Positions 11,002-37,401 of a stretch of 37,436 nucleotides of DNA are shown piece after piece. The DNA comes from Magnetococcales bacterium. Its GTDB lineage: Bacteria > Pseudomonadota > Magnetococcia > Magnetococcales > Magnetaquicoccaceae. The notes below the pieces were generated by a model. It worked only from the letters and a program-made list of their open reading frames with translations. It searched no databases and was not told the DNA's origin. Numbering within the stretch: the first letter of the stretch is position 1; every line of letters begins with the position of its first letter. The DNA is taken from contig JADFYY010000008.1 in the NCBI GenBank assembly GCA_015232825.1, forward strand, positions 1 to 37,436, in the 5' to 3' direction. The position numbers were made by a program, and so were the translations under genes.

Positions 11002-11014
11002 GGGTTGTTTTGGA

Positions 11015-12858: not shown

Positions 12859-12882
12859 GTAGATTATACCCATCGAATGCCG

Positions 12883-12911: not shown

Positions 12912-12963
12912 TAAATAATGCTGGGTATCGTTCTCATATATTCTAAAGTGGAGCAAATCATCA

Positions 12964-14880: not shown

Positions 14881-14903
14881 TCGCCTCTCTCATACAAAGA
14901 AAT

Positions 14904-14928
14904 CGGGCCAATTATGATGATTGGCCCG
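14904..14928 (+). terminator. Rho-independent terminator after the Cache-type chemoreceptor gene
   Basis: CGGGCCAAT and ATTGGCCCG form a perfect 9-bp stem around the loop TATGATG, followed by TTT. The T-tract is short but the stem is strong. It lies 24 bp after the stop codon and isolates the chemoreceptor from the potassium operon. Confidence 0.75.
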
Positions 14929-14944
14929 TTTCCCTTGAAATCCA

Positions 14945-14973
14945 TTGCAATCAGTAACTTTCTTTGATAGTAT
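14945..14973 (+). promoter_or_regulatory. Possible promoter of the potassium operon
   Basis: TTGCAA (14945-14950), 17 bp, then TAGTAT (14968-14973), about 87 bp upstream of trkA. Both boxes match consensus at four positions, so this is only a candidate. Nothing else stands out in the 131 bp between the terminator and trkA. Confidence 0.3.
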
Positions 14974-15059
14974 CCGATAATTTGGATCGATCTTGTGCGT
15001 TATCAAACTGCGAAGACTCTTTTTGCTTGGTGGTTTTATTATTTCATAGGTAAGACGAT

Positions 15060-17842: not shown

Positions 17843-17858
17843 CCACGATAGAGACTCC

Positions 17859-19886: not shown

Positions 19887-20016
19887 ATGTTGAATTGAAT
19901 CTGATATTGGCTTCGATGGTTTTTATGATTGCGTGAGGGGTTCATGATCATTTATTCTTAACCTGGATTCGGTGTGTATCCGGTCAATCCTGGTCTTTTG
20001 GATGGGGGGAATGGTC

Positions 20017-22541: not shown

Positions 22542-23906
22542 TCACTCCTCACTGACTAGACGCAACCGTTTCAACTTGCGCCATAGGGAGACCCGGTCAA
22601 TGCCGAGAATTTCTGCGGCCATGGTTTGATTGCCGCTGGTTTCATTCAGCACCCATTGGATGTAGTCGGACTCCAGTTCTTCCAGGGTTGGCGCACGATC
22701 CCCGCGTTTGCGAAAGGTCCGAATCATTTGAATGCGCAACTCGTCGGGTAGATGTAAGGTGGTGATGGTCTCTTCGTTGCAGAGGGCTACGGCTCGCTCC
22801 ATGATGTTTTCGAGTTCGCGAATGTTGCCGGGAAAATCATACTCCCGCAATAGGGCCATGGCATCGGCTGCAATGGTACGGGCAGGGCGTTCCATTCGTT
22901 CGGCTCCCCGTTTGAGAAAATAGTCTGCCAGTAGGGCAATGTCACCGCGACGTTGCTTGAGTGGGGGGATGGGGAGTGTGATTACATTGAGTCGGAAAAA
23001 AAGATCCTGGCGAAATTTCCCTTGGGCCACGGCTTCAGCAAGATTGCGATTGGTGGCAGCGATGAAACGGACATCAATGTGAATCGAGCGGGTTCCGCCT
23101 ACGCGCATTATTTCTCGTTCTTGAATGGCTCGCAACAGTTTGACCTGCATGGAGAGGGTCATTTCGGTGACTTCATCTAGAAACAGAGTTCCCCCTTGAG
23201 CGGATTCCATCAGGCCGATTTTGGTGGTGGCCGCGCCGGTAAAGGCCCCTTTTTCGTGACCAAAAAGTTCACTGGAGAGCAGTTCTTCGGTAAAAACACC
23301 GCAATTGATGGCCACAAACGGGCCATCTGGGTGTCCACTATGTTGATGGAGATAATGGGCGATTAACTCTTTGCCAACGCCGCTTTCTCCGGTGATCAGG
23401 ATGTTGCATCCGGTTGGTCCCACTTGACGGGTGGTTTCTAATAGTTTGATCATGACTGGATCCCGTGTGATGATGGGACCGCCTTCTTGGATGCGACGCA
23501 ATTTTTCTTTGAGTTCGCGGTTTTCGCGATGCAAGTGTACTTTGTGCATGGCCTCGCTGACCATTTTGCGCACTTCATCCAGACGGAAGGGTTTGGCAAT
23601 ATAATAAAACGCCCCATCACGCATCGCTTCCACAGCGGATTCTAGGGTGGCAAAACCAGTGATCAGGATGACTTCGGATTCAGGATAGAGTTTCTTGCAT
23701 GTTTGTAAGATTTCCATGCCATTGGCCCCATCCATGCGCAAATCGGTGAGGACGACATCAAAGGATTGACGTTTCAATAAAGTCAAGGCTTGTAAACCAT
23801 TGTCAATGGCCGTGGTATGATATCCCTCTTTGCGCATGACGTGGGCCAGATTGCGTACTGCAATGGGTTCATCGTCAATGATCAGCAGAGTTCCTTGTTC
23901 GGACAT
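22542..23906 (-). CDS. NtrC-family sigma-54-dependent response regulator
   Basis: The 454-aa activator has a receiver domain (1-120, phospho-acceptor Asp55, Lys105) and a AAA+ domain (about 142-375) with Walker A GESGVGKE at 173-180, the sigma-54 contact loop GAFTGA at 220-225 and Walker B LFLDE. A Fis-type helix-turn-helix lies near the end (MAAEILGIDRVSLWRKLKRL). GAFTGA shows it can activate sigma-54 RNA polymerase. It lies 17 nt after the histidine kinase gene on the same transcript. The sigma-54 promoter and paired palindromes across the divergent gap (25356-25563) make the carbon-uptake operon its likely target. Confidence 0.96.
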   Translation of the reverse strand: MSEQGTLLIIDDEPIAVRNLAHVMRKEGYHTTAIDNGLQALTLLKRQSFDVVLTDLRMDGANGMEILQTCKKLYPESEVILITGFATLESAVEAMRDGAFYYIAKPFRLDEVRKMVSEAMHKVHLHRENRELKEKLRRIQEGGPIITRDPVMIKLLETTRQVGPTGCNILITGESGVGKELIAHYLHQHSGHPDGPFVAINCGVFTEELLSSELFGHEKGAFTGAATTKIGLMESAQGGTLFLDEVTEMTLSMQVKLLRAIQEREIMRVGGTRSIHIDVRFIAATNRNLAEAVAQGKFRQDLFFRLNVITLPIPPLKQRRGDIALLADYFLKRGAERMERPARTIAADAMALLREYDFPGNIRELENIMERAVALCNEETITTLHLPDELRIQMIRTFRKRGDRAPTLEELESDYIQWVLNETSGNQTMAAEILGIDRVSLWRKLKRLRLVSEE

Positions 23907-23923
23907 GTCAATACTCCATGAAT

Positions 23924-25327
23924 TTAATTTTTTGGATCCGATGTCGCAACCGGCAGACGAATGGTGAAGCAGGTGCCTTGATTCGGTAGGGCCTCAACCG
24001 CAATGCATCCCTCATGCTCTTCAATGACATCAAAAACCACGGATAACCCAAGGCCAGCCCCTTTACCAATCGGCTTGGTGGTGAAGAATGGATCAAAAAT
24101 TCGCGCAATGTGTTCTTTTGGAATGCCTATCCCGGTATCTTGTATTTGGATTTCTGTCCAAGGGGCCGGACAGAGGCACCCGGCAAAAAGAGGAGAGTCG
24201 GTGGCACCAGAGATCGCTTTTATGACAACCTCTCCTTTCTCTGGAATGGCATCCAAAGCGTTCTTCAACAGATTGATGAAGGCTTGCTGCAAACGCTGAC
24301 GATCCCCCATCAAAATGAGATTAAACGGTATCTCACTACGTACCCGAATGCGTGCGGGAATGTTCCCCTTGCTAAAACGAATGACCTCTTCAATCAAACC
24401 AGACAACAAAACCGGTGCTTTTTGAAACGTCCGATCCCGGGCAAAGTCCAGCAGGGAACGAACAATATCTCTGGCCCGACGGGTCTGTTCATCAATCTGA
24501 CCCAACAACTCCCGATGAAAGGAGGGGTCCGGGGAGTCAACCTCTTCGGTAAGGATCTGACAGGAGGTGAAAATGTTGGATAACGGATTGTTCAACTCAT
24601 GGGCCACCCCAGCCAACAAGGTGCCCAATGAGGCCAGTTTCTCCGAACGAAGCAAATGCTTCTGACGCTTTTGCAGCTCATCCAAAACCAAATTGAACGC
24701 ACGGGTCAAAGAGAGAATCTCGCGGTCGTTGGATTGAATGTAAATGCTGGAAAAATGGCCATTGGCTACCCCGATCATACTCTCTTCCATACGACGCAAT
24801 GGCAGCACAACCCGGTGAGAAACCAAAAGGCCCAACAATAGAATTACCCCAATCACCACAACCATGGCCGTGACCAAAAAGAGTCGATGTCGCTCCAAGG
24901 AGTGCTGAACTTGAATCTGCTCCTTGGCGGAAATCTCTTCTGCGGTCGTGACAAGGGCTTTTCCTAATGTGCGGATTTTTCCTTCTGTTTCCGTGGTGAT
25001 CTCCTCGGAATTATGGACGAGGGCTTCATAGGCGTTCATTTGGGTATGGGTCGAATCCAAATCCAGCTTTTGCCACTCCTGCTTTACCAGATCAATATAT
25101 GATAAAAGTTGATACATATCTTCTGGTTTATGATAAAGGAAAAAATTTTTCTCGAAACGTCGCATCTCCAGCACATTATTGAGCAAAACAAACGCCTGTG
25201 AGCCCGATTGTACCCGTTGCGAAATCAAACGTAGCTCCATCAGGGTAAACAGGCTTAAAGCCAAGGTCAGGGCACTGATCAGGTAGTATCCGAGAATTAC
25301 TTTGTGTCGCAATGAGCTTTTTCGCAT
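23924..25327 (-). CDS. Membrane sensor histidine kinase, partner of the adjacent sigma-54 activator
   Basis: This 467-aa kinase has TM1 (about 10-31), a mainly helical periplasmic sensor (32-147), TM2 (148-170), HAMP (171-223), a HisKA domain with phospho-acceptor His243 in GVAHELNNPLSN, and an ATPase domain with N box (LLKNALDAI), DTGIGIP and GAGLGLS. The MRRFEKNFFLY segment at 55-65 resembles four-helix-bundle or HBM-type sensors; the ligand is unknown. AAGGAG precedes the ATG. It is transcribed from the promoter at 25360-25388, divergent from the operon it is inferred to control. A bicarbonate, CO2, pH or redox signal would fit, but none can be read from the sequence. Confidence 0.94.
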   Translation of the reverse strand: MRKSSLRHKVILGYYLISALTLALSLFTLMELRLISQRVQSGSQAFVLLNNVLEMRRFEKNFFLYHKPEDMYQLLSYIDLVKQEWQKLDLDSTHTQMNAYEALVHNSEEITTETEGKIRTLGKALVTTAEEISAKEQIQVQHSLERHRLFLVTAMVVVIGVILLLGLLVSHRVVLPLRRMEESMIGVANGHFSSIYIQSNDREILSLTRAFNLVLDELQKRQKHLLRSEKLASLGTLLAGVAHELNNPLSNIFTSCQILTEEVDSPDPSFHRELLGQIDEQTRRARDIVRSLLDFARDRTFQKAPVLLSGLIEEVIRFSKGNIPARIRVRSEIPFNLILMGDRQRLQQAFINLLKNALDAIPEKGEVVIKAISGATDSPLFAGCLCPAPWTEIQIQDTGIGIPKEHIARIFDPFFTTKPIGKGAGLGLSVVFDVIEEHEGCIAVEALPNQGTCFTIRLPVATSDPKN

Positions 25328-25355
25328 GGGGAAACTCCTTCATTCAAAGTAGGTG

Positions 25356-25368
25356 TTGCATTATGCAA
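25356..25368. promoter_or_regulatory. Palindromic operator TTGCATTATGCAA (distal activator site)
   Basis: This 13-bp palindrome has the form TTGCA-N3-TGCAA. The same form recurs at 25468-25480, 112 bp away centre to centre. It contains the whole -10 box of the kinase promoter. It lies about 190 bp upstream of the -24/-12 promoter, a usual enhancer distance for NtrC-type activators. Confidence 0.7.
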
Positions 25369-25388
25369 GCATGAATGGCAAAAGGCAA
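25360..25388 (-). promoter_or_regulatory. Sigma-70 promoter of the kinase/activator operon
   Basis: On the minus strand TTGCCT (25388-25383), a 17-bp spacer and CATAAT (25365-25360), with transcription expected near 25353 and a leader of about 25 nt that carries the AAGGAG ribosome-binding site. The -10 box sits inside the palindrome at 25356-25368. Confidence 0.6.
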
Positions 25389-25467
25389 CACTCGTGTAAC
25401 ACTGTTAAAATTTGGTTAAATTTTAGATAAATATTAACAAGTATCTCGTTGTTTTGTTGCGTAGATA

Positions 25468-25480
25468 TTGCAAAATGCAA
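25468..25480. promoter_or_regulatory. Palindromic operator TTGCAAAATGCAA (proximal activator site)
   Basis: This is the second copy of TTGCA-N3-TGCAA, with both five-base arms identical to those of the site at 25356-25368. It lies 68 bp upstream of the -24 element, in the position expected for a sigma-54 enhancer. Confidence 0.7.
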
Positions 25481-25513
25481 TAGTAAGGATGAGGCTAAAA
25501 TGACCGCTTTGTC

Positions 25514-25526
25514 AATCAATTAATTG
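25514..25526 (+). promoter_or_regulatory. IHF-type site between enhancers and sigma-54 promoter
   Basis: AATCAATTAATTG matches the IHF consensus WATCAANNNNTTR at every position. The surrounding ATCAATTAATTGAT (25515-25528) is a perfect 14-bp palindrome, so the reverse strand matches as well. The location between activator sites and promoter is where IHF bends DNA at sigma-54 promoters. A separate dimeric regulator binding the palindrome is the alternative. Confidence 0.55.
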
Positions 25527-25547
25527 ATAGAGTTGGTTTTTTTGCCG

Positions 25548-25563
25548 TGGCATTTCGCATGCA
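25548..25563 (+). promoter_or_regulatory. Sigma-54 (-24/-12) promoter of the carbon-uptake operon
   Basis: TGGCA at 25548-25552 and TGCA at 25560-25563 place the invariant GG and GC exactly 10 bp apart, as required for RpoN. Transcription should start near 25574, giving a leader of about 30 nt before the ATG at 25606. The neighbouring gene for a GAFTGA-containing activator supports the call. Confidence 0.8.
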
Positions 25564-25605
25564 TATTGAAGATGGATGAATGACTACAACTTAAAGGAGG
25601 GTTTC

Positions 25606-25794
25606 ATGTCTCACTTGTTAAGCTCATTGGACCTTCACTGGATGGCCTCCACCTTTGCGCAAGCAGGTGAGCGGGATTCTGCCATGCAGATGCTCGATGC
25701 CGCTTTGCGTGCGGATCCAAAAAAAGGAGCGGAAAAAAAACCAGCAGCCAACCATCCCTTGATGACTCCATCGCCGGTGGTCTCCTCCAGATGA
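25606..25794 (+). CDS. Small protein with AxTFAxAGExDxA motif, first gene of the operon
   Basis: The 62-aa product starts after AGGAGGG, the best ribosome-binding site in the region, so the ATG at 25606 is preferred over one at 25576 that would lie almost at the transcription start. Residues 13-28 read ASTFAQAGERDSAMQM, a motif also found in the next protein. The tail is Lys/Ala/Pro-rich and probably flexible. It has no signal peptide or membrane helix. I do not recognise the family with confidence. It overlaps the next start by 4 bases. First position behind a sigma-54 promoter suggests a regulatory or assembly role in carbon uptake; this is inference. Confidence 0.7.
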   Translation: MSHLLSSLDLHWMASTFAQAGERDSAMQMLDAALRADPKKGAEKKPAANHPLMTPSPVVSSR

Positions 25795-26258
25795 TCTCTG
25801 TTGGCGTCCATCTGGATAAAATGTTTACTGCCACGACCTTTGCCGAGGCTGGCGAGTTTGATACGGCTAGGGAGCTGGCGCGGGAGTTACGGAATATATT
25901 ATTGGTTCTTCAAGCAGAAGATCCAGCTCCCGATGTGTTGTCTACGGCCTTGTCTATGATGGATCGCTTAGAGGCCGGGGTGGAGATTTTGTCTGGCATG
26001 CCAGCGGAAAAGGTCTCACCACTCCTGACCCGTTTTTTGGAAGATGTGGCCAAAAAAGGGAAAAATAGCCGTATGATTCACCGTCCCGGCATTCAGTGGG
26101 AAACCGTTGTGGGGTATGCCAGTTCGGTTCCTGATATTGTCTGCATTTTGGTGGAGTCATTGGAAAAGTGGGGTTTAAATAGTTTCCCAAAGAGGCGGCA
26201 TCCTCCCCCTTGGAGTAACCGTTTGCCTTGTCCTTTGGTGGTGGCCGCCGCCGGATAA
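25791..26258 (+). CDS. Small soluble protein with AxTFAxAGExDxA motif, second gene of the operon
   Basis: This 155-aa, mostly helical protein carries ATTFAEAGEFDTAREL near residues 14-29, matching the motif in the 62-aa protein before it, which suggests a duplicated family. The middle is amphipathic helix and the last 25 residues are basic and Pro-rich (PKRRHPPPW). It has no membrane helix, no cofactor motif and no recognised domain. Translation is coupled to the upstream gene (ATGA). SulP starts 50 nt after the stop. Possible roles are a cytosolic adaptor for the SulP STAS domain or for DabA; neither is shown. Confidence 0.7.
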   Translation: MISVGVHLDKMFTATTFAEAGEFDTARELARELRNILLVLQAEDPAPDVLSTALSMMDRLEAGVEILSGMPAEKVSPLLTRFLEDVAKKGKNSRMIHRPGIQWETVVGYASSVPDIVCILVESLEKWGLNSFPKRRHPPPWSNRLPCPLVVAAAG

Positions 26259-26308
26259 AGGGGTTGGCTTTTGTTCTTGGTTCTAATTTTTAGTTCAGGA
26301 TTGCTCCC

Positions 26309-28063
26309 ATGTTGTCAATTACTAAAATCTTTCCGTTTTTAAAATGGTTTCCCATGAGTCGTGGAAACTTGCAGGCCGATCTGATCGCTGGAATTACGGT
26401 GGCCTTGGTTTTGATCCCTCAGTCCATGGCCTACGCTAATCTGGCTGGATTGCCTGCCTATTATGGGCTTTATGCAGCCTTTCTGCCGGGTGCCGTGGCC
26501 GCTCTGTTTGGCTCCTCCAGGCAGTTGGCCACTGGTCCTGTGGCGGTGGTATCACTCCTGACCGCCTCGGCTTTGTTGCAATTCGCCCAACCCGGCACCG
26601 ATGCCTTTGTCTCGTTGGCCATTTTAATGTCTCTGTTGATCGGAGCCGTACAGTTGACCTTGGGTCTGTTGCGACTCGGTGTTGTGGTCAATTTTCTTTC
26701 GCATCCGGTCATTTTGGGGTTTACCAATGCCGCTGCTTTGATTATCGGTCTTTCGCAACTCTCTAAAATCTTTGGCGTCAAAATGGGGCGTAGCGAACAC
26801 TTCCTGGTTGATATCTGGGGGGTGATGCAACAGGTTCACTTAACCCATCTCCCCTCTTTGGTGTTCGGTGTGGTGTCGTTTGCCATGATGTGGACCTTGA
26901 AAAAATATCGTCCCAAATTGCCCAATGTCTTGATTGCAGTGGCTCTGACCACTTTGGCCAGTTGGCTGATGGGATTTCAAGAGATGGGCGGCAAGGTGGT
27001 TGGCCAGATTCCTCAAGGCTTGCCTACCCTGACGCTTCCGCAACTCGATCTTCATCTCATGGGGAGTTTGCTTAGCAGTGCCTTGATTATCTCTTTGGTG
27101 GGATTCATGGAGGCTATTTCCATTGCCAAGGCCATGGCCGCCCGCACCAGAGATTGTATTGATCCCAACCAGGAGTTGATTGGTCAGGGGTTGGGCAATC
27201 TGATCGGTTCGTTTACTCAAGCCTATCCCACTTCCGGTTCATTTTCGCGTTCGGCTGTCAATCTGGATGCCGGGGCCAAAAGTGGGTTTGCCTCGGTTGT
27301 CACCACAATTATGGTTTTGCTGACACTATTATTTCTCACTCCTTTATTATATCACCTCCCAGAGGCGGTTTTGGCCGCTGTCATCATGATGGCTGTGGTC
27401 GGTTTGATCAATGTGAAGGCCATCATGCATGCTTGGCACGCCAACCGGCATGACGGTGTGGCCGCTATTGCAACTTTTTTTGCCTCTCTGGCCTTTGCCC
27501 CCCATCTTGACAAGGGGATCTTTTTTGGAGCTGGGTTGGCGATTATCCTGTTTTTATATCGCACCATGAGCCCACGGGTCGCCCAGCTTGGTCTATTTTC
27601 CGATGGCACCTTGCGCGATGTGGCTGTTCACCCGCAATTGCCCACAGACCCAGAGATCATTGCCTTGCGCTTTGATGGCCAACTCTATTTCGCCAATGTC
27701 TCTTACTTTGAAGAGATGGTGCTGAATGCCGTCTCTGCCAAGCCCAATGCCCATTACCTATTATTGGTGTGTGATGGCATCAATCAAATGGATGCCTCTG
27801 GCGAAGAGGTTGTGCGTCATCTGGTGGAACGGGTGAGCAAAAATGGCATGACCGTCATTTTTTCAGGCGTGAAACGTCAGATTATGATGGTCATGCAAGC
27901 GACTGGTCTGTTTGATCTGGTCGATGGTGAGAAGAACATCTTTTCAACCGAGCAGGCCGCCTTGAGCAATATCTATGATCGTCTTGGTAGTGGCAAGCAA
28001 CGTCTGTTGCTGGGCATCCCCATGGAGGTGCGCAAGGAAATTTCTGCGGATTGTCGAGCATAA
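26309..28063 (+). CDS. SulP-family anion transporter with STAS domain, probable bicarbonate transporter
   Basis: The 584-aa protein has the SulP membrane core (about 15-430), with the signature LVLIPQSMAYANLAGLPAYYGLYAAFLPG near the N-terminus, GSSRQLATGPVAVVSLL, and AYPTSGSFSRSAVN. A C-terminal STAS domain (about 450-560) follows, with the conserved DASG loop. SulP proteins carry sulfate, bicarbonate (BicA type) or other anions, usually with Na+ or H+. No sulfate-assimilation gene is nearby, while DabA and its membrane partners follow 63 bp downstream with no terminator between. That makes bicarbonate the likeliest substrate, by context only. AGGA precedes the ATG. Confidence 0.92.
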   Translation: MLSITKIFPFLKWFPMSRGNLQADLIAGITVALVLIPQSMAYANLAGLPAYYGLYAAFLPGAVAALFGSSRQLATGPVAVVSLLTASALLQFAQPGTDAFVSLAILMSLLIGAVQLTLGLLRLGVVVNFLSHPVILGFTNAAALIIGLSQLSKIFGVKMGRSEHFLVDIWGVMQQVHLTHLPSLVFGVVSFAMMWTLKKYRPKLPNVLIAVALTTLASWLMGFQEMGGKVVGQIPQGLPTLTLPQLDLHLMGSLLSSALIISLVGFMEAISIAKAMAARTRDCIDPNQELIGQGLGNLIGSFTQAYPTSGSFSRSAVNLDAGAKSGFASVVTTIMVLLTLLFLTPLLYHLPEAVLAAVIMMAVVGLINVKAIMHAWHANRHDGVAAIATFFASLAFAPHLDKGIFFGAGLAIILFLYRTMSPRVAQLGLFSDGTLRDVAVHPQLPTDPEIIALRFDGQLYFANVSYFEEMVLNAVSAKPNAHYLLLVCDGINQMDASGEEVVRHLVERVSKNGMTVIFSGVKRQIMMVMQATGLFDLVDGEKNIFSTEQAALSNIYDRLGSGKQRLLLGIPMEVRKEISADCRA

Positions 28064-28126
28064 CTCCTTGACGCTCTGGAACGGATGAATTATTATATTG
28101 CAACCGTTCTTGTCGTGTAATGTTGC

Positions 28127-29611
28127 ATGGATGCGCCTATTGCCATGAAGCCTTTATTGGTTCTTCTGTTCTTGCCCGCTTTCGGGGCTGGTGTGATTGC
28201 TTTGCTGCCTGCACGTATGGCTGGATTAATGCGTGGCATGGCAGTTTTGGTTTCATTAATTACTTTGATTGTCGCAATTTGGGTTGTAATTCATTTTATT
28301 GGTACTAATAGTGATTTGCAGTTTTTGGCAAACTATCCTTGGCGGTCCCAACTGGACAACTCATTCGCCTTTGGCGTCGATGGCCTCTCTTTGCCCATGG
28401 TTCTTTTGGCCACGCTTTTGGCATTTGTGGCCATACTCGCCTCTGGTGGCGTGAAAGAGATGGCCAAGGGCTATTATGCCCTGCTCCTCTTACTAGAGAC
28501 CTCGATGCTGGGTGTCTTTATGGCCCAGGATTGGTCCATCTTCTACATTTTCTGGGAACTGACCCTGCTGCCGCTTTTTTTTCTGATCAACACCTTTGGC
28601 GGCAAACAACGCAATCAGGCGGCACTCAATTTTGTTCTCTACACCATGGGTGGATCGGTTTTTATGCTGATCGGCTTGCTGTTGGCCTATGACGCCTCCA
28701 CGCCTCACACCTTTTTGATGAATGAAATGGCAATCGGGACCGCCTCCCTTTCTGGTGAACGGCAGGTTCTGATATTCCTTGGTTTTCTCATCGGCTTTGG
28801 GGTCAAAATGCCGATCTTTCCCTTGCATGGCTGGCTCCCTTTGGCCCATGTGGAGGCACCAGCCCCGGTGAGTCTGCTGCTTTCTGGCGCGTTGCTGAAA
28901 ATGGGATCTTATGGCCTGATCCGTGCCGCCATGATGCTGCCAGAGGCGGTGGTTACTTTGCAGGTTTTTTTGGCGACTCTTGCCATGATCAATGTGATCT
29001 ACGGTGGGGTGTTAGCTTGGCGTCAGATCGACCTCAAACGGATGATCGCCTACTCTTCTGTGAGCCATATGGGGGTGGTGCTTTTGGGCATTGCCGCTTT
29101 GAATCTCAACGGCATCACTGGGGCCATGTTGCAGATGGTTTCTCACGGTTTGACCGCAGGAGCCCTGTTTTTGGTGATCGGCCTGCTTTATGAACGGACC
29201 CATACCCGTGATATTCGTCATTATGGTTCGCTGACCCAGGTGGCTCCCCGGTTTGCCTTTTTTGTTGCGGCGGCTTTTATGGCCTCTGTGGGGGTGCCAG
29301 GAACAGCGGGTTTTATGGCTGAGTTGCATGTCATGATCGGTAGCCTGCAACGGTGGGGGTGGTCTGCGGCCTTGTTAAGCGTGGGCATGCTGGTGGGGGC
29401 GGCTTATGCCGTGCGTACCATCGGCTGTTTGTGTACTGGACCCAAACATCAAGGTACTGAAATCCTGATCCCCATGAGACGGACAGAACTGGCCGCCGCA
29501 ACGATTTTGGTTATGGCCATTGTGGTGTTGGGGTTCTTGCCCGCGCCTCTGTTGGGGATGATGACCGCCTCTTTGGATCGCTTCGGCGACCTGTTTGTCA
29601 ATGGACTGTGA
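28127..29611 (+). CDS. ND4/NuoM-like proton-channel subunit of the expanded DAB module
   Basis: This 494-aa membrane protein of the Mrp antiporter/complex I NuoM family has about 14 hydrophobic segments. Proton-path residues are kept: Glu144 (FYIFWELTLLPLFFL), Lys227 (GVKMPIFPLHGWLP) and Lys258 (ALLKMGSYG). It could therefore move protons. No NADH-oxidising or quinone-site subunit is encoded here, and DabA follows after 3 nt, so it is assigned to the inorganic-carbon module. The start has no clear ribosome-binding site; an ATG at 28145 is an alternative that removes six residues. Confidence 0.9.
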   Translation: MDAPIAMKPLLVLLFLPAFGAGVIALLPARMAGLMRGMAVLVSLITLIVAIWVVIHFIGTNSDLQFLANYPWRSQLDNSFAFGVDGLSLPMVLLATLLAFVAILASGGVKEMAKGYYALLLLLETSMLGVFMAQDWSIFYIFWELTLLPLFFLINTFGGKQRNQAALNFVLYTMGGSVFMLIGLLLAYDASTPHTFLMNEMAIGTASLSGERQVLIFLGFLIGFGVKMPIFPLHGWLPLAHVEAPAPVSLLLSGALLKMGSYGLIRAAMMLPEAVVTLQVFLATLAMINVIYGGVLAWRQIDLKRMIAYSSVSHMGVVLLGIAALNLNGITGAMLQMVSHGLTAGALFLVIGLLYERTHTRDIRHYGSLTQVAPRFAFFVAAAFMASVGVPGTAGFMAELHVMIGSLQRWGWSAALLSVGMLVGAAYAVRTIGCLCTGPKHQGTEILIPMRRTELAAATILVMAIVVLGFLPAPLLGMMTASLDRFGDLFVNGL

Positions 29612-29614
29612 CCC

Positions 29615-32600
29615 ATGACCCATGAAGCTTCAGCGGCTCCTTTGACAGGTCGGGCATTGATTCAAGCCACAGTGCATCACTTGGAACACCTAGTGCCAGG
29701 ACAGGCGGTGATCACCGATTTTGTCCATCACAATACTTTGCATGGATTTCAGCACTATCCCTTTCCCAAGGCCTTGATCGAAGCGCGGAAAGTGACCGGG
29801 ATTTATGGCTATTTGCCGATCACGCGGTTTCGCGCATTGTATGCCCAGGGCCGAATCGGGCGGGATGACTTAGAAAGCGTCATTGCCGGGGATCGGGAGT
29901 TGGCGGCTGAGACTCCAATCGGTTCCACGCGACGCAGGGAGATTTTGCGTCTGTTGCTGGAACAGGAGATTAACCCCCTGACTGCCGTTCAGTTGGCCTG
30001 GGAGATCGAGGAACAAGGGGCGTTGAGTCGGGTTCATCCGGCTGTGGATGCCCAAATTCGTGCCGGGTTTCAGGCGGATGGTGAGGCGGAAACCGTGGCT
30101 GAGTTGTGGCAGGCCTGCCTGGAGTTGTTCGGTTTGCACCATAGCGACTGGTACAGCGAGGAGCGTTTGGATCTCTCTACTGAGGAGGATCCGCCTTTCT
30201 CTTTGGAGGAGACCGGACAGAGCGACCAACAACGGATTCTCGCGCAGATCAAGCAGGAGGCAGAGCGAATCTGGGACGAACTGGAGGCTAGGGTAGGGGT
30301 CACCCTGACGTTACGGGGTTTGCTCAAGGTGCTGACCGGGGAGGATATTTTAGATGGGGTTCGGCCCTATCTGTTGCGCTATCTGGCGTCGTTTTTGGAT
30401 CTTGGGGTGGCTGCTTGGCCGCTGCCACAACGCCAGCAGGGGTTTTATCTGGCTTGGAGGGAGTGTGCCGGTGTGGACATGGCCTTTGCCATGGAGGAGA
30501 CTCAAGATTGGAGCGCGGCTATTGCCGAGCTGCCGCCTACCGCGATGGAGGCGGTGGAGTGGTGTTTGAATCAAATCGGTCTGCCAGAGAGCCATTGGGG
30601 AGGGTATCTGGAGCGATTGGCTTTGGAGTTACCCGGTTGGTCTGGCATGATGATGTGGCGAGCCTTGCGCCCCGGTTATGCGGGTACAGGGGAAGGTGTG
30701 CGGGTGGAAATGCTCGATTATCTGGCCGTGCGGCTGGTGTTGGAGCGACTCTTTGCCGTGCGTTTATGTCGGGTTCGTTGGCGTTTGGAGCCCTCTTTGG
30801 CAACTCTTGGCGACTATTTTCGTCGCTTTCCAGGGGAACTGTACGGGCGGTGGTCGTTGGCTGCCGGGAATCTGCCTGATTTTTTGGCCATGCGTGCCAA
30901 TTCTTTGCTGCATGGTTCTTTGGAAGATCCCGATGTGGCGATGAAATGGCGCAAATTGGCGTTCATGATCCAGGATGGTCAGTATGGACCCCAGGAGGGG
31001 TATTGCGCGAGCAGGACGGCATGGCCGATCTTTTTGTTGTCGCAACATTTGGGGTGGCGTGCCGAGACGCTCCGTCAGGGGGGCCGGGAGATGGCTTTGG
31101 CCATGCTGGCCTGCCTGGAGCAACTCGATGACGAGAAGTCAGGGTATCTGTGGCTGCAAGCCTATGAACGGCACTACCGTAATCAGATTTTTGCCGCATT
31201 GATAGCCAATCATGGGCGTGGGGCGTGGAGCCAGCGTAAGTGCCGTCCTTCATCCCAGGTCATTTTTTGTATGGATGACCGCGAGGAGGGGATTCGTCGC
31301 CACCTGGAAGAGCAGACCCCTTCCATTGAAACCTTGGGTGCGGCAGGATTTTTTGGTGTCCCGGTACGCTGGAAAGGGGTGGATGATGCCAGCGAATCTC
31401 TACTGTGTCCCGTGGTGGTGACCCCGTCCCATGTGATTCACGAGCGACCCACGCCCGGTACGGAGTTGCAGCTTGCATCCCATCACCGGTGGCTTGAAAT
31501 GGGGAAATGGGGGCGGGAGCTTTTGTTTCGTAAGAGTCATCGGGGTTTGCTGGTGCCTGCTTTGCTCTCCATGATCGTGGCTCCTTTGGTTTTGTTGGCC
31601 CTGTTTGGCAAGGGGATGCTGCCTAGGTTGTGGGGGAGGCTGTTAGGGCGAATGGGACAGTGGATTGATGGGCCTGTCTCGACGACCGTGACCCTTACGG
31701 CGGCCAACGACGGCACCCCTGCCACGCCGACGCAACCGAGGGTCGGTTTTACCGATGAAGAACAGAGCGTGCGGGTGGCTGGATTCTTGCGCACCATTGG
31801 ATTGGTCAACGGTTTCGCACCTGTGGTGGCCATTTTGGGACATGGGGGGAGCAGTCAGAACAATCCCCACCTTTCTGCTTATGATTGTGGCGCGTGCAGT
31901 GGTCGTCATGGCGGTCCCAATGCCCGATTGTTTGCAGCCATGGCCAATCGCAACGAGGTACGTTCCCGTCTGGCTGAGATGGGAATACCGATCCCGGCGG
32001 ATACTTGGTTCATCGGGGGGGAGCACGATACTGGCAACGAAAAGATCACTTGGTTTGATGAGGATTTCGTGCCGGATTATGCCAAGGGAGCCTTGTTGGC
32101 CTTGACTGGCCAATTGGATGCAGCCCGGCAATCTTCAGCCCATGAGCGGGCGCGTCGTTTGGCCTCTGCTCCCAAGGGGGATTCCCCGGCGCGGGCATTG
32201 GCCCATATGGAGGGACGCGGTCTGGATTTCAGCCAGGCCCGTCCTGAACTTGGGCATGCCACCAACGCCGTGGCCCTGATCGGTCGTCGCGCCACCACCC
32301 GTGGGGTCTTTTTTGATCGGCGCATGTTTTTGATCTCCTATGATCCGACCATTGATCCAGAGGGAACCATCGTGGAAGCCATTCTTTTGGCCGCAGGACC
32401 GGTGGGGGCTGGCATTAGTTTGGAATATTATTTCTCTACGGTGGATAATGACCGTTTTGGCTGTGGTAGCAAGGTGGTTCATAATATTACCGGTCTGTTC
32501 GGGGTGATGGAGGGGACCGGCTCGGATTTGCGTACCGGCTTGCCGCAGCAGATGATCGAGATTCATGAGGCCATGCGTTTGCTGGTGGTGGTGGAACAAC

Positions 32601-32848
32601 GTCCGCCGATTTTAACCGCGATTTATCAGCGTCAACCCGAAATTCGCGAGCTGGTGGGCAATGGCTGGATTGTGTTGGCCTCATTGGATCCTGACAACGG
32701 CGAGATTCACCTGTTTCAACCGGAGAGCGGCTGGGCTTTGTGGGAGAATACCTTGCCACCAGTACCAAAGGTCAATCGTTCAGTGGCGTGGTATGCGGGC
32801 CATTCTGGTCCTCGGCCACCTGCGTTGGTCGCCATGGAGAGTGTGTGA
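29615..32848 (+). CDS. dabA: DabA-type (DUF2309) carbonic-anhydrase-like subunit for inorganic-carbon uptake
   Basis: The 1077-aa protein belongs to the DUF2309 family (UPF0753). In Halothiobacillus neapolitanus DabA2 the beta-carbonic-anhydrase-like site is Cys351, Asp353, His524 and Cys539. Here the matching set is Cys552 and Asp554 (FCMDDREEG), His743 (GHGG) and Cys758 (DCGAC), with the same 15-residue His-Cys spacing. The N-terminal signature VHHNTLHGFQHYPF is present. A hydrophobic stretch at about 645-665 could contact the membrane. The active site sits about 200 residues later than in DabA2, so this is a long form. It probably hydrates CO2 to bicarbonate in one direction, coupled to proton flow through DabB-like partners. 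Its stop overlaps the next ATG by one base. Confidence 0.93.
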   Translation: MTHEASAAPLTGRALIQATVHHLEHLVPGQAVITDFVHHNTLHGFQHYPFPKALIEARKVTGIYGYLPITRFRALYAQGRIGRDDLESVIAGDRELAAETPIGSTRRREILRLLLEQEINPLTAVQLAWEIEEQGALSRVHPAVDAQIRAGFQADGEAETVAELWQACLELFGLHHSDWYSEERLDLSTEEDPPFSLEETGQSDQQRILAQIKQEAERIWDELEARVGVTLTLRGLLKVLTGEDILDGVRPYLLRYLASFLDLGVAAWPLPQRQQGFYLAWRECAGVDMAFAMEETQDWSAAIAELPPTAMEAVEWCLNQIGLPESHWGGYLERLALELPGWSGMMMWRALRPGYAGTGEGVRVEMLDYLAVRLVLERLFAVRLCRVRWRLEPSLATLGDYFRRFPGELYGRWSLAAGNLPDFLAMRANSLLHGSLEDPDVAMKWRKLAFMIQDGQYGPQEGYCASRTAWPIFLLSQHLGWRAETLRQGGREMALAMLACLEQLDDEKSGYLWLQAYERHYRNQIFAALIANHGRGAWSQRKCRPSSQVIFCMDDREEGIRRHLEEQTPSIETLGAAGFFGVPVRWKGVDDASESLLCPVVVTPSHVIHERPTPGTELQLASHHRWLEMGKWGRELLFRKSHRGLLVPALLSMIVAPLVLLALFGKGMLPRLWGRLLGRMGQWIDGPVSTTVTLTAANDGTPATPTQPRVGFTDEEQSVRVAGFLRTIGLVNGFAPVVAILGHGGSSQNNPHLSAYDCGACSGRHGGPNARLFAAMANRNEVRSRLAEMGIPIPADTWFIGGEHDTGNEKITWFDEDFVPDYAKGALLALTGQLDAARQSSAHERARRLASAPKGDSPARALAHMEGRGLDFSQARPELGHATNAVALIGRRATTRGVFFDRRMFLISYDPTIDPEGTIVEAILLAAGPVGAGISLEYYFSTVDNDRFGCGSKVVHNITGLFGVMEGTGSDLRTGLPQQMIEIHEAMRLLVVVEQRPPILTAIYQRQPEIRELVGNGWIVLASLDPDNGEIHLFQPESGWALWENTLPPVPKVNRSVAWYAGHSGPRPPALVAMESV

Positions 32849-34374
32849 TGGGGTGGGTGATGGTGGTGCCTCTGCTGCCTTGGCTGGCGGCGTTGTGGAT
32901 CGGCGTGGGCATGTTGACCGGTCAGCGTCGCGGCGAGGCCGGTGAGCGGGGTACGGCTTGGGTTGCCTTGTTGGCTGCTACAGGCTCTTTGTTGGGGATG
33001 TTGGTGGTGGATGGTATGGCCGTACATCAGGGCGTGATGGGTCATGTGGTGGTGTTCCCTTGGTTGAGCAGTGGCCCTTTGCGGGTGACGATCAGTTTGC
33101 TGTTGGATCGTCCAGGTTTGGTGATGGGAACCTTGGTGGCCTTCGGCGCGTTGATGACGCTAAAATTTGCGGTCAATTATATGCACCGTGAGCCAGGATT
33201 TCATCGCTTTTTTGCTGTGCTGTGTCTGTTTGCCGGGGGCATGACGTGGATCGCCCTTTCTGGCAATGCGGTGTTGACCTTTGTGGGGTGGGAGGTGGCG
33301 GGTCTCTCATCTTATCTGCTGATTGCCTATGCCGACACCCGTACCACCGCCACCACCAATGCCACTCGCGCCTTTGTGACCAATCGTTTTGGCGATGCGG
33401 GGATGGTGTTTGGGATGGCCATGGTGTTTCTTTGGACTAAAGGCGTGGAGTGGCCTGCGATTTTTCAGGCTGCCAAACCACTGGGTTCGTTGCTGACGGC
33501 GGTCATGGTTGCGGGGTTTCTTTTGGCGGCTGTGGTCAAGTCGGCGCAAATCCCGTTTGTGGCCTGGATCAGTCGCGCACTGGAGGGACCGACCCCTTCG
33601 AGTGCGGTGTTTTATGGCGCGTTGATGGCTCATGCTGGGGCTTTTTTGGTCATTCGTTTGGAACCTTTATTGGTGCTAGCCCCGTTCTGGATGGTGATCC
33701 TGATGTTGATTGGTGGATTGACCGCCTTGTTCGCCTCTGCGGTTGGCCGGGTGCAAACCGATGTCAAGAGTGTTTTGATCTTTTCCACTCAGGCCCAGAT
33801 CGGGTTGATTTTTTTCGAGTGCGGCGCGGGTTTTTTTGATTTTGCTTTGTGGCATCTGGTCGCGCACACCCTGTGGCGTTTTTATCAGTTTTTGCTGTCG
33901 CCCTCTTACATCCATTTGGCTCCGGTTAGACCTTCTGCAGGAGGGGTGGCCAAGAGTCCTGCCCTGTATACGTTGCTTTTGCATCGCGGCTGGTTTGACT
34001 CTGTGACCGACGCGCTTATTACTCGTCCCACCTTGGCGTTGGCGCGGGATGTGCAGATTTTTGATGAATTGGTGATCTCTCGTATGTCTGGACGTCCCAT
34101 GCAAGAGAGCCTGTTGCGTCATATGGTCGCAGGCGTGGAGGTTTCTTCACTCTCTGGTGTGACCCAGGGTCGCGGGGTACTTGGACGCTTGTTGGAGAGA
34201 GTCGGGATGCTTTTTTTCTGGTTCGAGGAGCATCTGGTATTGCGAAGCAGTGGCGATGGTTTGCTTAAAGCGATGCGATTTTTGGGCGAATATGTCACGC
34301 GCATTGAGCTGTTGTTTGGTCAACCGCGTTATCTCTATTTAATGATTATGTTGACTTTTTTGGTTATTCTTTAG
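32848..34374 (+). CDS. dabB: ND5/NuoL-like DabB membrane subunit
   Basis: This 508-aa ND5-like protein directly follows dabA (TGATG overlap), the arrangement of characterised dab pairs. Family features are VNYMHREPGFHRFFAVLCLF, FVGWEVAGLSSYLLI with Glu149, KSAQIPF with Lys231, EGPTPSSAVFYGALMAHAG, and TDVKSVLIFSTQAQIG. The usual Lys in the later HAFFK-type helix is Arg344 (HTLWRF). The last 150 residues differ from NuoL: a soluble stretch, then a final hydrophobic helix, as in DabB-type proteins. It should form the proton route that drives DabA. A frame extends upstream inside dabA, but GGAGAG is 7 nt before the ATG at 32848. Confidence 0.88.
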   Translation: MGWVMVVPLLPWLAALWIGVGMLTGQRRGEAGERGTAWVALLAATGSLLGMLVVDGMAVHQGVMGHVVVFPWLSSGPLRVTISLLLDRPGLVMGTLVAFGALMTLKFAVNYMHREPGFHRFFAVLCLFAGGMTWIALSGNAVLTFVGWEVAGLSSYLLIAYADTRTTATTNATRAFVTNRFGDAGMVFGMAMVFLWTKGVEWPAIFQAAKPLGSLLTAVMVAGFLLAAVVKSAQIPFVAWISRALEGPTPSSAVFYGALMAHAGAFLVIRLEPLLVLAPFWMVILMLIGGLTALFASAVGRVQTDVKSVLIFSTQAQIGLIFFECGAGFFDFALWHLVAHTLWRFYQFLLSPSYIHLAPVRPSAGGVAKSPALYTLLLHRGWFDSVTDALITRPTLALARDVQIFDELVISRMSGRPMQESLLRHMVAGVEVSSLSGVTQGRGVLGRLLERVGMLFFWFEEHLVLRSSGDGLLKAMRFLGEYVTRIELLFGQPRYLYLMIMLTFLVIL

Positions 34375-35868
34375 ATGTCTGCATTTCCTTCTCTACTTGA
34401 GTTGTTGTTGCTTGTGCCAGCCATTGGGGCGGTCGCGCTCTTTTTTGTGCGGCGCAATGGTTTGGCTTGGGGCCTTGGGTTGGGCTGTGCGTTGGTGGAG
34501 TTGTGGTTGGCGGTGCATCTCTATCAGACCTTTGACCTGCATGACTCCTCTTGGCAATGGTATCGGCGGTGGTTTGTGACCAGTTGGGTGGTTTATACCG
34601 TGGGAGCAGATGGGATCAGTGTGATTTTTATGCTGCTGACGGCTTTTTTGTCGGTGTTGGTGGCCATTTATGGGGGATTGGTGCGCTGTTTTACCCCTTT
34701 GCCGCGTTTTCTGGCTGTGGTTTTGGCTTGCGAGGCGGTCCTGATGGGGCAGTTCGCCACGTTGGATTTGCTTTGGTTTGTTTTGTTCTCTGCGGTGCAG
34801 ATTTTGATTGTTGGCTATCAGTTTACCACGTGGTCCCTCTCTACTTTGGAGCGGTTGGCGATCAGTCGTTATTATCAATTCATGGGGACAAGCATTTTGC
34901 TGTTGGTGCTGGCCACGCTGATGTTGGGATGGAGTCACGGCGAGTTGGCTGGCGGGGCGTGGAGCTTTGAACTGGGTATTTTGCAGGCCGATCATCGTTC
35001 CTTATATATTCAGGAGGTTGTGTTTTTTTTGCTTTTTTATGGTTTGGCGATTCGTGTCCCGATATTTCCTTTGCACGGTTGGCTTCCCCATGTGATGGAG
35101 CATGGCACCGTGGCCTCGGCTCTGGTGTTGCTGGTGGGTTTGAAAACCGGGGTCTACGGGATGGTGCGTTTTATGTTTCCCTTGGTACCGGATGCGGTTT
35201 GGCATTGGCATGTCACGGTGATTGCCATTGCCGCTGTTGGGATTTTTTATAGTGCGCTTTTCGCGCTTGTTCAGAAAAATTTAAGAAAACTGCTTGCCTA
35301 CGCCGTGATCAGTCATACGGGTATTCTGGTGATCGGCTTGTTTAGTCTGCATCCGCAAGCCTTTCAGGGAACCATTCTTTTGACCATGACTTTTGGCTTA
35401 GCCATTTCGACTTTGTTGTTGATGGCGGGGATCGTTTATTTGCGCACCCATACCATGGTTTTGGTATTGCTTGGGGGGTTGTTTTCCGCCTTGCCTTGGA
35501 TTGGTATTGCCTTTTTGGTGGCGGCGTTCTCTGTGGTCGGAATGCCGGGAACGCCGGGTTTTGAAGCCGTCCATTTACTGTTGGAGGCGGCGATTCACCG
35601 TTTTGGGGCTTTGGTTACGGTGGCGGCGGCTCTTGGCAATGTGGCGGCGGCGGCCTGTTTGTTGTGGGCTTTTCAGCGTGCCTTTCTGGCTACACCTTTG
35701 CAGGTGGGAGCTGGTCGGGGTGTGGTGGCCCGTGCTACTTGGGTTGAACAGTCGCTGGCTATTTTGTTGCTTGCGGTTCAATTAATCTCTGGGTTTTATG
35801 CGGAACCGTGGCTTTCTCTGGTGGAAAATGGTTCTAAGACCCTGGCCACCCCTTATATGGAACGCTAA
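34375..35868 (+). CDS. Divergent ND4/NuoM-like subunit lacking the key glutamate
   Basis: This 497-aa NuoM-family membrane protein starts directly after the dabB stop (TAGATG), so it depends on coupled translation. The core VPIFPLHGWLPHVMEHGTVASALVLLVGLKTGVYG identifies the family. The conserved TM5 glutamate (Glu144 in NuoM) aligns with Ala140 in LWFVLFSAVQIL, and the TM7 lysine is Arg227; Lys257 in LKTGVYG remains. The loss suggests it does not pump protons by the normal route and may be a structural or modified channel subunit. Length and helix count are normal and the frame is intact, so it is not a pseudogene. Confidence 0.88.
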   Translation: MSAFPSLLELLLLVPAIGAVALFFVRRNGLAWGLGLGCALVELWLAVHLYQTFDLHDSSWQWYRRWFVTSWVVYTVGADGISVIFMLLTAFLSVLVAIYGGLVRCFTPLPRFLAVVLACEAVLMGQFATLDLLWFVLFSAVQILIVGYQFTTWSLSTLERLAISRYYQFMGTSILLLVLATLMLGWSHGELAGGAWSFELGILQADHRSLYIQEVVFFLLFYGLAIRVPIFPLHGWLPHVMEHGTVASALVLLVGLKTGVYGMVRFMFPLVPDAVWHWHVTVIAIAAVGIFYSALFALVQKNLRKLLAYAVISHTGILVIGLFSLHPQAFQGTILLTMTFGLAISTLLLMAGIVYLRTHTMVLVLLGGLFSALPWIGIAFLVAAFSVVGMPGTPGFEAVHLLLEAAIHRFGALVTVAAALGNVAAAACLLWAFQRAFLATPLQVGAGRGVVARATWVEQSLAILLLAVQLISGFYAEPWLSLVENGSKTLATPYMER

Positions 35869-35877
35869 AGAGCGACC

Positions 35878-37356
35878 ATGAATAGTCTACCTTTTTTGAG
35901 TCTGCTCATTGCCTTGCCCTTGTTGGGTGCGGTGCTGGCGTGGTTTGCTCCCAATGGACGTTGGGCGCGCAGTGTGGCTTTGAGTATCGGATTCTTTGAA
36001 TTGATTTTGGCGATAAAGGTGGTGTTTGCGTTTGATCCAAACAGCGCGGCCTTTCAATTGATTGAAAAACGGGCATGGATCCCTTCTTTGAACAGTCATT
36101 ACCATGTGGGCATTGATGGTTTGTCTGTTCTGTTTTTGCCCATGACCGCGCTTTTGTTTATTGCAACTTTGATTGCTGGTTGGAGTTTGGCCAATCGCAT
36201 GATGCCGCATCTTTATTTCGCCCTGTTGTTGTTTTTTGAAGGGGTGACCATGGGGATTTTTTGCGCCTTGGACACCATGTTGTTTTTTCTTTTTTGGGAA
36301 TTGACGTTGATTCCGATCTATTTTTTGGTCAGTTTGTGGGGTATCGGTCCCAATCGTCGTTATGCCGCGCTCAAGTACACCTTGTTTATGCTGGCGGGGG
36401 GGGCTCCATTGTTGTTTGGTTTGTTGCTGTCGGCGATGGCCAATTCTGGTCAACCTTTGTTGTTTGATTTGGTGGTACTGTTGCAAAATCCATTACCAAT
36501 TCAGGTGCAGTGGCCGGTATTTTTTTTGTTGTTGATTGGGTTTGGGGTTAAGGTTCCCTTTGTGCCTTTGCATGCTTGGCTTCCCACCATAGCCATGGAG
36601 GGGCCGGTGGCCATTACTGCCATTATGACTGGTTTGAAGCTTGGGGCGTATGGATTGATTCGTTTTTTGATGCCTTTGACTTCAGACGTGGCCCATGAAC
36701 TTCATTGGCTTTTGGAAGGGATTGCGGTTGTGGCTATTGTGTACGGGGCCTTGGCTGCGCTGGTACAGAGCAATTTGCGTCGAATGTTGGCTTTTTCTAG
36801 TATCAGTCATGTTGGATTGGTGGTGTTGGGGGTAGCATCGTTCTCTTTGCAGGGGGTGCAGGGGGCTTTGTATCAATTATTGAATTTCTCTTTGACTTCG
36901 GGGGGAATATTTTTGTTAGCGGGATTCCTTCATCAACGGCTTGGCTCCACTGATTTGACTCGGATGGGTGGTTTGATTCAACCGATCCCTTTGGCTACGG
37001 GAATGTTTTTGTTGATGGGATTGGCCAGCATGGGGATTCCATTGACTTCTGGTTTTCCGGGGGAGTTTTTGTTGCTTGTTGGGGCATTGCAACATCACAT
37101 TGGGTCTGGTTTAGCTGCTTTGGGAGGGGTTATTTTGGGTGCGGGGTATTTTTTAAGGTTTTATCGTCGTGCCTTTTTGGGTCCATTGGGTCCGAGTGTC
37201 CCGGAGCGGCTTCCGTCTCTTCTTCCACGGGAGATGTTGATTTTAATCACCTTTGCGATTTTGATTCTTGTTGGTGGGTGGTTTCCTTCCATTATTCTAG
37301 ATATAATTTTTACAGCGTCACAGAATTGGTTGGATCATATAAATTATAACTATTAA
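35878..37356 (+). CDS. ND4/NuoM-like proton-channel subunit, last gene of the operon
   Basis: This 492-aa NuoM-like protein keeps the proton-path residues Glu141 (FFLFWELTLIPIYFL), Lys225 (GVKVPFVPLHAWLP) and Lys254 (GLKLGAYG). It begins 9 nt after the previous stop, with AAAGAG as a weak ribosome-binding site. It is the fourth antiporter-like subunit in the operon. It resembles the 28127 gene product in the TM5 and TM7 regions but is clearly diverged from it elsewhere. A terminator follows 15 bp after the stop. Coding-strand composition is very rich in T and G, as expected for hydrophobic codons. Confidence 0.9.
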   Translation: MNSLPFLSLLIALPLLGAVLAWFAPNGRWARSVALSIGFFELILAIKVVFAFDPNSAAFQLIEKRAWIPSLNSHYHVGIDGLSVLFLPMTALLFIATLIAGWSLANRMMPHLYFALLLFFEGVTMGIFCALDTMLFFLFWELTLIPIYFLVSLWGIGPNRRYAALKYTLFMLAGGAPLLFGLLLSAMANSGQPLLFDLVVLLQNPLPIQVQWPVFFLLLIGFGVKVPFVPLHAWLPTIAMEGPVAITAIMTGLKLGAYGLIRFLMPLTSDVAHELHWLLEGIAVVAIVYGALAALVQSNLRRMLAFSSISHVGLVVLGVASFSLQGVQGALYQLLNFSLTSGGIFLLAGFLHQRLGSTDLTRMGGLIQPIPLATGMFLLMGLASMGIPLTSGFPGEFLLLVGALQHHIGSGLAALGGVILGAGYFLRFYRRAFLGPLGPSVPERLPSLLPREMLILITFAILILVGGWFPSIILDIIFTASQNWLDHINYNY

Positions 37357-37371
37357 AATAAAAGAGAGGGT

Positions 37372-37391
37372 TTGGGAGATTCATCTCCCAA
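37372..37391 (+). terminator. Rho-independent terminator of the carbon-uptake operon
   Basis: TTGGGAGA and TCTCCCAA form a perfect 8-bp stem with a TTCA loop, followed by GGTTTTG and a T-rich stretch. It lies 15 bp after the last stop codon. Confidence 0.75.
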
Positions 37392-37401
37392 GGTTTTGCC
37401 T

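Follow-up and report, generated by a model that had tools for sequence, protein, structure and literature searches.

The DNA analysed here, a stretch of 37,436 nt hereafter called the window, is a contig of a magnetotactic-type Magnetococcales bacterium (GenBank assembly GCA_015232825.1, contig JADFYY010000008.1; C259 in our numbering), taken from an assembly of 3.03 Mb in 270 contigs that is 77% complete. It carries a cassette of five genes, encoding a DabA-type zinc protein and four membrane proteins related to the complex I subunits NuoL and NuoM, which we describe as a candidate second class of the DAB inorganic-carbon uptake systems. The cassette belongs to a run of eight open reading frames (ORFs) on one strand at 25606-37356, confirmed by ORF calls where an earlier reading of the letters alone (the first-pass annotation) had placed them (Table 1). 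From sm1 to ND4c the intergenic distances are, in order, -4, 50, 63, 3, -4, 0 and 9 nt, in agreement with the tight spacing and overlaps described there. The eight genes are two modules, sm1-sm2-SulP and the five-gene DAB cassette ND4a-DabA-ND5-ND4b-ND4c.

Table 1. Features of the operon region in the window and the evidence for each.
Feature	Position	Strand	Evidence
NtrC-family sigma-54 response regulator, divergent from operon	22542..23906	-	PF00158, PF00072, PF02954
Histidine kinase (HAMP-HisKA-HATPase), divergent from operon	23924..25327	-	Domain matches
Sigma-54-like promoter TGGCATTTCGCATGCA (GG-N10-GC)	25548..25563	+	Upstream of sm1; suggestive only
sm1, 62 aa, small protein without assigned function	25606..25794	+	ORF; similar short ORFs at related loci
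sm2, 155 aa, small protein without assigned function	25791..26258	+	ORF; 4-nt overlap with sm1
SulP-STAS anion transporter, 584 aa	26309..28063	+	PF00916 and PF01740; TIGR00815 passed
Sigma-70-like promoter match TTGACG-17-TATTAT	28068..28096	+	10/12, consensus match only; in the 63-nt SulP-ND4a gap
ND4a, NuoM-like, complete proton-channel residues, 494 aa	28127..29611	+	PF00361; TIGR01972 472.6 bits
DabA, beta-carbonic-anhydrase-like zinc subunit, 1077 aa, His658/Glu356 class without finger Glu444	29615..32848	+	PF10070 786.9 bits
ND5, DabB-type (NuoL-like), 509 aa, GTG start	32845..34374	+	PF00361 and PF00662
ND4b, NuoM-like with degenerate channel, 497 aa	34375..35868	+	PF00361; TIGR01972 262.9 against a cut-off of 263.8, just missed
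ND4c, NuoM-like, channel residues kept save His348 to Phe, 492 aa	35878..37356	+	PF00361; TIGR01972 passed
Putative intrinsic terminator	37371..37392	+	9-bp stem, 4-nt loop, T-rich tail

Homologues of DabA were collected from contigs of named genomes (64 loci) and from four genome sets, in which they were present in 17 of 18 genomes of the family, 34 of 48 of the class, 68 of 398 drawn from the phylum and 27 of 199 drawn from the phylum of the Planctomycetales locus L041; these sets overlap, and relatives of the window occur in several. Among the 64 named-genome DabAs, the eight closest to that of the window belong to records titled Magnetococcales (59-64% identity). Of the 154 loci scored, L065 alone had no recognised DabA. 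A set of 153 DabAs was reduced by 10 duplicates to 143 and, after setting aside five that lack a residue at position 658 (several of these five are cut by contig ends), to 138. Locus counts of arrangements, and a zinc-site evidence count of 128, contain same-genome duplicates. DabA residues are numbered as in DabA2 of Halothiobacillus neapolitanus, whose positions 658 and 356 correspond to His881 and Glu557 of the window protein; L-subunit residues are numbered as in NuoL, 144 and 342 being Glu150 and Arg345 of the window ND5.

In the alignment to DabA2, the zinc ligands and the Asp-Arg dyad (Cys351-Asp353-Arg355-His524-Cys539) are present in all 138 distinct sequences, and the window DabA has the intact site reported at first pass. 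Position 658 divides the set into 102 sequences with His and 36 with Leu. Glu356 occurs in 101 of the His658 proteins and Glu444 in none (eight have Asp there); their paired L subunits carry Glu144 (94/94) and Arg at the position of NuoL Lys342 (91/91 readable). All 36 Leu658 proteins have Ser356 and Glu444, and their L subunits lack Glu144 (0/34) and retain Lys342 (34/34). No M-like gene was found among the Leu658, DAB2-like loci scored. An L subunit could not be assigned for 15 DabAs, and the second copy at L061, first scored as DabB before DabA since an ND5 lies upstream in its tandem array, is class II by residues and was counted so. In a FastTree phylogeny of DabA the two classes are separated with a support of 100. 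DabA length was rejected as a class mark: the proteins of L239 and L242 are long, yet of the Leu658 type.

DAB2 (9rd0) was the only solved relative found by a PDB sequence search. Its description (PMC13144422) presents it as the prototype of the family and reports that Glu444 mutants lose activity, that Leu658 stands where a transition-state Gln is expected, and that DabB2 has Ile151 in place of NuoL Glu144, which is one half of an ion pair close to where the subunits meet; restoring the Glu halved growth yield. The window system resembles DAB2, and DAB/DAC systems generally, in its PF10070 subunit with an intact Cys-Asp-x-Arg...His...Cys zinc site and in a single adjacent NuoL-like DabB whose C-terminal part diverges. 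It differs in having the DabA gene ahead of the L gene, in the one to three extra NuoM-like subunits of most class-II loci, in the DabA residues (His for Leu658, Glu for Ser356, no finger Glu444) and in an L subunit that keeps Glu144 and has Arg for Lys342; two marks of the DAB2 type, here class I, namely a finger Glu444 and an L subunit without Glu144, are lacking throughout the His658 set. Because gene order and several residues differ from DAB2, class II may couple CO2 hydration to ion flow differently.

ND5, annotated as DabB-like at first pass, is indeed NuoL-like to about residue 358 and divergent beyond. In DabB2, likeness to complex I ends after transmembrane helix (TM) 11, where the helical finger of DabA enters (PMC13144422). 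The AlphaFold model of ND5 has a mean confidence score (pLDDT) of 83.6, lower past residue 360, and its Foldseek match is NuoL. The complex-I-type ion pairs Glu144-Arg175 and Lys229-Asp178 are kept; among 37 complex I NuoL controls Glu144 was present in both that were readable, the others being mostly truncated at this position. For DabA, the model (pLDDT 84.1) is helical at 617-640 and at 646-668, the part to which the finger aligns. No conserved acid was found in the finger hairpin of the five-gene class, in which the residue at the place of window Lys666 is basic in 88%; in the Planctomycetes class, 96% have a basic residue four positions before an invariant Pro. The finger is the least certain part of the alignment, because the two classes differ much there.

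For the ND4/NuoM proteins, residues were counted in distinct proteins that are 440 aa or longer and exceed the score limits. Six residues that we take, with their numbering, to be the key residues of NuoM do not vary among the 36 NuoM controls from complex I. ND4a has the six in 62 of 62 homologues, and ND4c has five in 53 of 53, with Phe for His348 in 51. ND4b (n = 56) lacks Glu144 and Glu407 in every case and has Arg for Lys234 in 56, Lys265 in 56 and His322 in 52. PlM, the lone M subunit at Planctomycetes loci, is likewise degenerate: of 22 proteins, all have Arg234, two have Glu407, and none has Glu144 or Lys265. By residue content, ND4a and ND4c look channel-competent and ND4b degenerate, and the conserved Arg in ND4b and PlM speaks for a retained function and against decay. 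The four proton-channel-like subunits of the first-pass annotation are therefore one too many, since ND4b is degenerate in all its homologues. In a tree of 81 rows made by a quick method, ND4b groups with PlM (support 98), both group with ND4c (96) and ND4a forms its own clade (100); several branches are long, the degenerate ones included, and the placement of ND4a relative to NuoM is not settled.

Three arrangements cover most loci, namely DabB before DabA (33 loci), the five-gene order with or without SulP, and DabA followed by ND5 and one M subunit, the last mainly in Planctomycetes. When only distinct DabAs of the His658 type are counted that are flanked by 1.7 kb or more upstream and 5.2 kb or more downstream (73), 42 have the order ND4a-DabA-ND5-ND4b-ND4c, 19 have DabA-ND5-PlM and 12 another; the ND4-like genes reported beside DabA at first pass thus recur in relatives. 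The window has too little downstream room to be among the 73, yet shows the full order, which ranges from Magnetococcales to Methylococcaceae, Thiotrichaceae and Azonexaceae. Deviations include one M subunit each, scored as ND4c, at L045 and L050, and an ND5 in two pieces at L256. Tandem DabA-ND5 pairs occur in one cassette at L061 and at L032 (Thiothrix caldifontis, 7243-21324), the latter with the order ND4a-DabA-ND5-DabA-ND5-ND4b-ND4c, as if two catalytic units shared the M subunits. At L040 (12868-16032), in a metagenome-assembled genome titled Deltaproteobacteria, ND5 is fused to an M-like subunit in a single ORF of 1054 aa. At L119, ND4b is split over two frames near a contig end, by assembly error or as a pseudogene.

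Across 49 loci (rows shorter than 780 aa excluded), the divergences of the five proteins are correlated (r 0.86-0.92). Partial correlations are 0.54 for ND5-ND4b, 0.44 for DabA-ND4c, 0.32 for ND4a-ND4c, 0.25 for ND5-DabA and 0.09 for ND4b-ND4c, which suggests a chain ND4b-ND5-DabA-ND4c-ND4a.

We read 28127-37356 as encoding one membrane complex, a second class of DAB, or vectorial carbonic anhydrase ("class II"), that would act as a CO2 hydrase driven by the proton motive force (PMF), and give this a probability of about 0.6. DabA would bind zinc and hydrate CO2 at the cytoplasmic side, with its helical finger inserted around TM12 of ND5, in the manner of DAB2, so that a composite ion path forms. 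ND4b would conduct no ions by the standard route and, bound to ND5 on its Glu144 face, may have a structural role or one in coupling. DabA-ND5-ND4b would represent the ancestral core, to which the channel-competent, NuoM-like pair ND4c and ND4a would have been added in proteobacteria, possibly on the DabA side. Inward flow of protons (or sodium) would pull CO2 hydration uphill to bicarbonate, and more than one ion per CO2 would permit operation at weak PMF or very low CO2. By our own estimate, a single proton at 180 mV covers the cost of a roughly 1000-fold excess of bicarbonate; more ions per CO2 would therefore be useful mainly under those conditions.

The same subunits might instead form a linear stack, ND4a/ND4c-ND4b-ND5-DabA, resembling the arm of complex I or NDH-1MS, with ND4b as an inert spacer. 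NDH-1MS has CupA on NdhF3 (L) and ion pairs at the interface with NdhD3 (M) (PMC6981117), and the Glu144 face of ND5 is free to bind. A spacer without Glu144 and Glu407 would, on the other hand, break the lateral charge chain, and the partial correlation of DabA with ND4c exceeds that of ND4b with ND4c; we consider such a stack possible without favouring it. A second alternative limits the CO2 hydrase to DabA-ND5-ND4b and makes ND4a and ND4c a separate or joining cation/proton antiporter with a supporting role in ion return or pH control. Planctomycetes loci do have a DabA-ND5-M core without ND4a and ND4c, and ND4a, lying outside the ND4b/ND4c/PlM clade, may therefore have been recruited separately. 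Yet none of the 73 DabAs with flanking room has ND4b and ND4c without ND4a, which adjoins DabA in 45 of them and co-diverges with the other cassette proteins, and the window cassette has no recognisable small Mrp subunit. We think this division of labour unlikely.

Operation in the reverse direction, with an energy-yielding DabA and membrane subunits that export ions, was proposed by Klimchuk et al. 2017 (PMC5700660), at a time when DabA had yet to be characterised. Retention in ND5 of the Glu144-Arg175 and Lys229-Asp178 pairs, of which DAB2 lost the Glu, would fit such a pump, as would the pump-like ND4a and ND4c. The zinc site is nevertheless the same as in a CO2 hydrase, relatives of which rescue carbonic-anhydrase-negative Escherichia coli (PMC13144422, PMC12628692), and the cassette holds no other enzyme, so that ion export appears quite improbable to us.

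Several observations weigh against a PMF-driven class-II CO2 hydrase. The literature yielded no biochemistry for any class-II member. Identification of DabA rests on sequence, because DabA2 (9rd0) is not among the 50 Foldseek matches listed for the DabA model; this search gave no match at E <= 0.001, which says nothing on identity. Because the DabA tree has a single deep split, the association of Glu144 with an M neighbour amounts to one evolutionary event. Two loci (L257 and L258, in genomes G459 and G532) each carry two divergently transcribed DabA-ND5 pairs, with an L subunit only: no NuoM-like gene was recognised in the stretch, and Glu144 is still kept alongside all four class-II DabAs. 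In these pairs one ND5 has Glu for Arg175 and the other Asn for His338, and the idea that one L copy is degenerate was rejected. Parts of the cassette are also missing near DabA at L049 and L130, which have no M subunit there, and at L038, which has ND4a only, with ND4b- and ND4c-like scored matches on another contig. The partial correlations are weak evidence: bootstrap ranges below the top two overlap others, and the comparison is without an unlinked-gene control. Finally, a beta-carbonic anhydrase (PF00484) is present in 14 of 18 family genomes, in one below the curated cut-off, and such an ordinary enzyme would short-circuit a bicarbonate pump if cytoplasmic. The same count leaves no support for a DAB that replaces carbonic anhydrase.

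SulP with sm1 and sm2 is probably a neighbouring module with its own regulation. The two divergent regulator genes (Table 1) both adjoin sm2-SulP in eight of 13 related loci examined (L002, L003, L004, L006, L108, L269, L270 and L272; 57-77% identity); two others have partial matches (L007, NtrC alone, 34%; L126, kinase alone, 41%), and neither regulator was found at L105, L054 and L058. At L269, L270 and L272 no DAB genes were found beside sm2-SulP, DabA being on other contigs. In these three relatives (genomes G040, G046 and G017) the block of regulators and SulP module, which in the window runs from the regulators to sm2 at 22542-26258 and on into SulP, stands apart from the DAB genes. ND4a has SulP immediately before it in 14 of the 58 distinct loci that offer 2.2 kb or more on that side. 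Of the 48 genomes of the class, 12 carry sm2, whose product has no match in Pfam or NCBIfam. By eye, sm1 and sm2 have in common a motif like FAxAGExDxA near their starts and are perhaps duplicated. SulP falls short of the BicA equivalog cut-off (132.9 against 880 bits). Upstream of the region, at 15060-19886, are potassium uptake genes, encoding TrkA, TrkH and a TrkA-domain ion channel.

These distributions bear on the model of the first-pass annotation, in which four equivalent proton channels and SulP make up one eight-gene unit. Tight spacing in the window speaks for such a unit; the channel count is contradicted by the degenerate ND4b, and the location of SulP and the two small proteins elsewhere in other genomes speaks against a single unit, so that we hold the model very improbable. 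What stands of that annotation is the conserved cassette, the intact DabA, the DabB-like ND5 and three ND4-like genes; the gene order SulP-ND4-DabA-ND5-ND4-ND4 holds for its cassette part (42 of 73), but SulP is directly upstream in a minority of loci.

The first-pass annotation also has the eight genes read from one promoter to one terminator. The hairpin and T-rich tail after ND4c would fit a terminator, but a single promoter is not established. Terminator-like matches are no commoner in the window than expected from shuffles (24 against 24.4). Upstream of sm1, the sole exact window match to TGGCAYN6TGCW, a pattern composed after the site had been seen, has a chance expectation of 0.66; the site scores 9/12 as a sigma-54-like promoter, and two intragenic window sites score higher, at 10. 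In four of five relatives, sigma-54-like sites of 8-10/12 lie at -59 to -82 of sm1. The sigma-70-like match between the modules is among the three best-scoring of the window. Given a sigma-54-like site before sm1 and a sigma-70-like match between the modules, the eight genes may form one or two transcription units.

Among known systems, cyanobacterial NDH-1MS (CupA-NdhF3-NdhD3) likewise has a CO2-hydrating subunit on an L-type subunit with an M-type neighbour, and the L interface ion pair is kept. Unlike the cassette, it is driven by electron transfer, and the CupA fold is unlike known carbonic anhydrases (PMC6981117). No redox subunits were found in the cassette by family scans; Cup proteins were not searched as such. 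With the complex I arm (NuoL/M/N), the cassette shares channel residues, in ND4a, in ND4c and in ND5 towards its N terminus. The cassette nonetheless lacks a hydrophilic arm, in line with the first-pass annotation (no hydrophilic subunit was seen among the operon genes), and a NuoH-like gene. It has no other nuo genes, and L, M, N and H of complex I sit on another contig, C217; a stray complex I fragment was rejected on these grounds. Unlike an Mrp antiporter, it comprises DabA and four PF00361 proteins only, not the MrpA-G set. MpsAB is a related system by published descriptions.

Klimchuk et al. 2017 (PMC5700660) described "clade C" ybcC/COG3002 operons, in which ybcC precedes a nuoL homologue and NuoM and sulfate-permease genes are frequent, and raised the possibility that a larger number of membrane subunits goes with a larger number of ions. 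By gene order the window belongs here, with PF10070 upstream of a nuoL homologue and NuoM and SulP genes. As far as the available text goes, that account has no residue analysis of the membrane subunits, does not separate ND4a, ND4b and ND4c, and suggests ion export driven by DabA. No residue-level description of class II was found in the literature, a search that did not cover Desmarais 2019, Mangiapia 2017 and the Klimchuk supplement, and the available portions of PMC13144422, PMC10880623 and PMC12628692 do not mention the group. The arrangement and the more-ions idea were thus already published in 2017; what appears new is a class distinct from DAB2 by its residues.

Within the class-II reading, we tentatively entertain a more specific form, in which DabA links two antiporter-type modules, ND5-ND4b with one ion path and ND4c-ND4a with two channels, His658 confers an intrinsic carbonic anhydrase activity greater than that of DAB2, and 2-3 ions pass per CO2. 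The ND5 path would be completed by a DabA finger with Lys or Arg in place of Glu, and the dead ND4b would be kept for coupling. If true, this would be a distinct machine, able to concentrate bicarbonate even at low PMF. No RuBisCO (PF00016) was found in the 18 family genomes, several of them incomplete, though 17 contain DabA; because of this, DAB probably serves something other than a RuBisCO-based CO2-concentrating mechanism in these bacteria.

Because the clade keeps the zinc site, lacks the essential Glu444 and has the Glu144 that DAB2 lost, the coupling mechanism becomes testable by comparison. In our view, complex I research has yet to settle how ion stoichiometry scales with the number of antiporter-like subunits; loci that carry one, two or four membrane subunits make up a natural series on which this could be tested.

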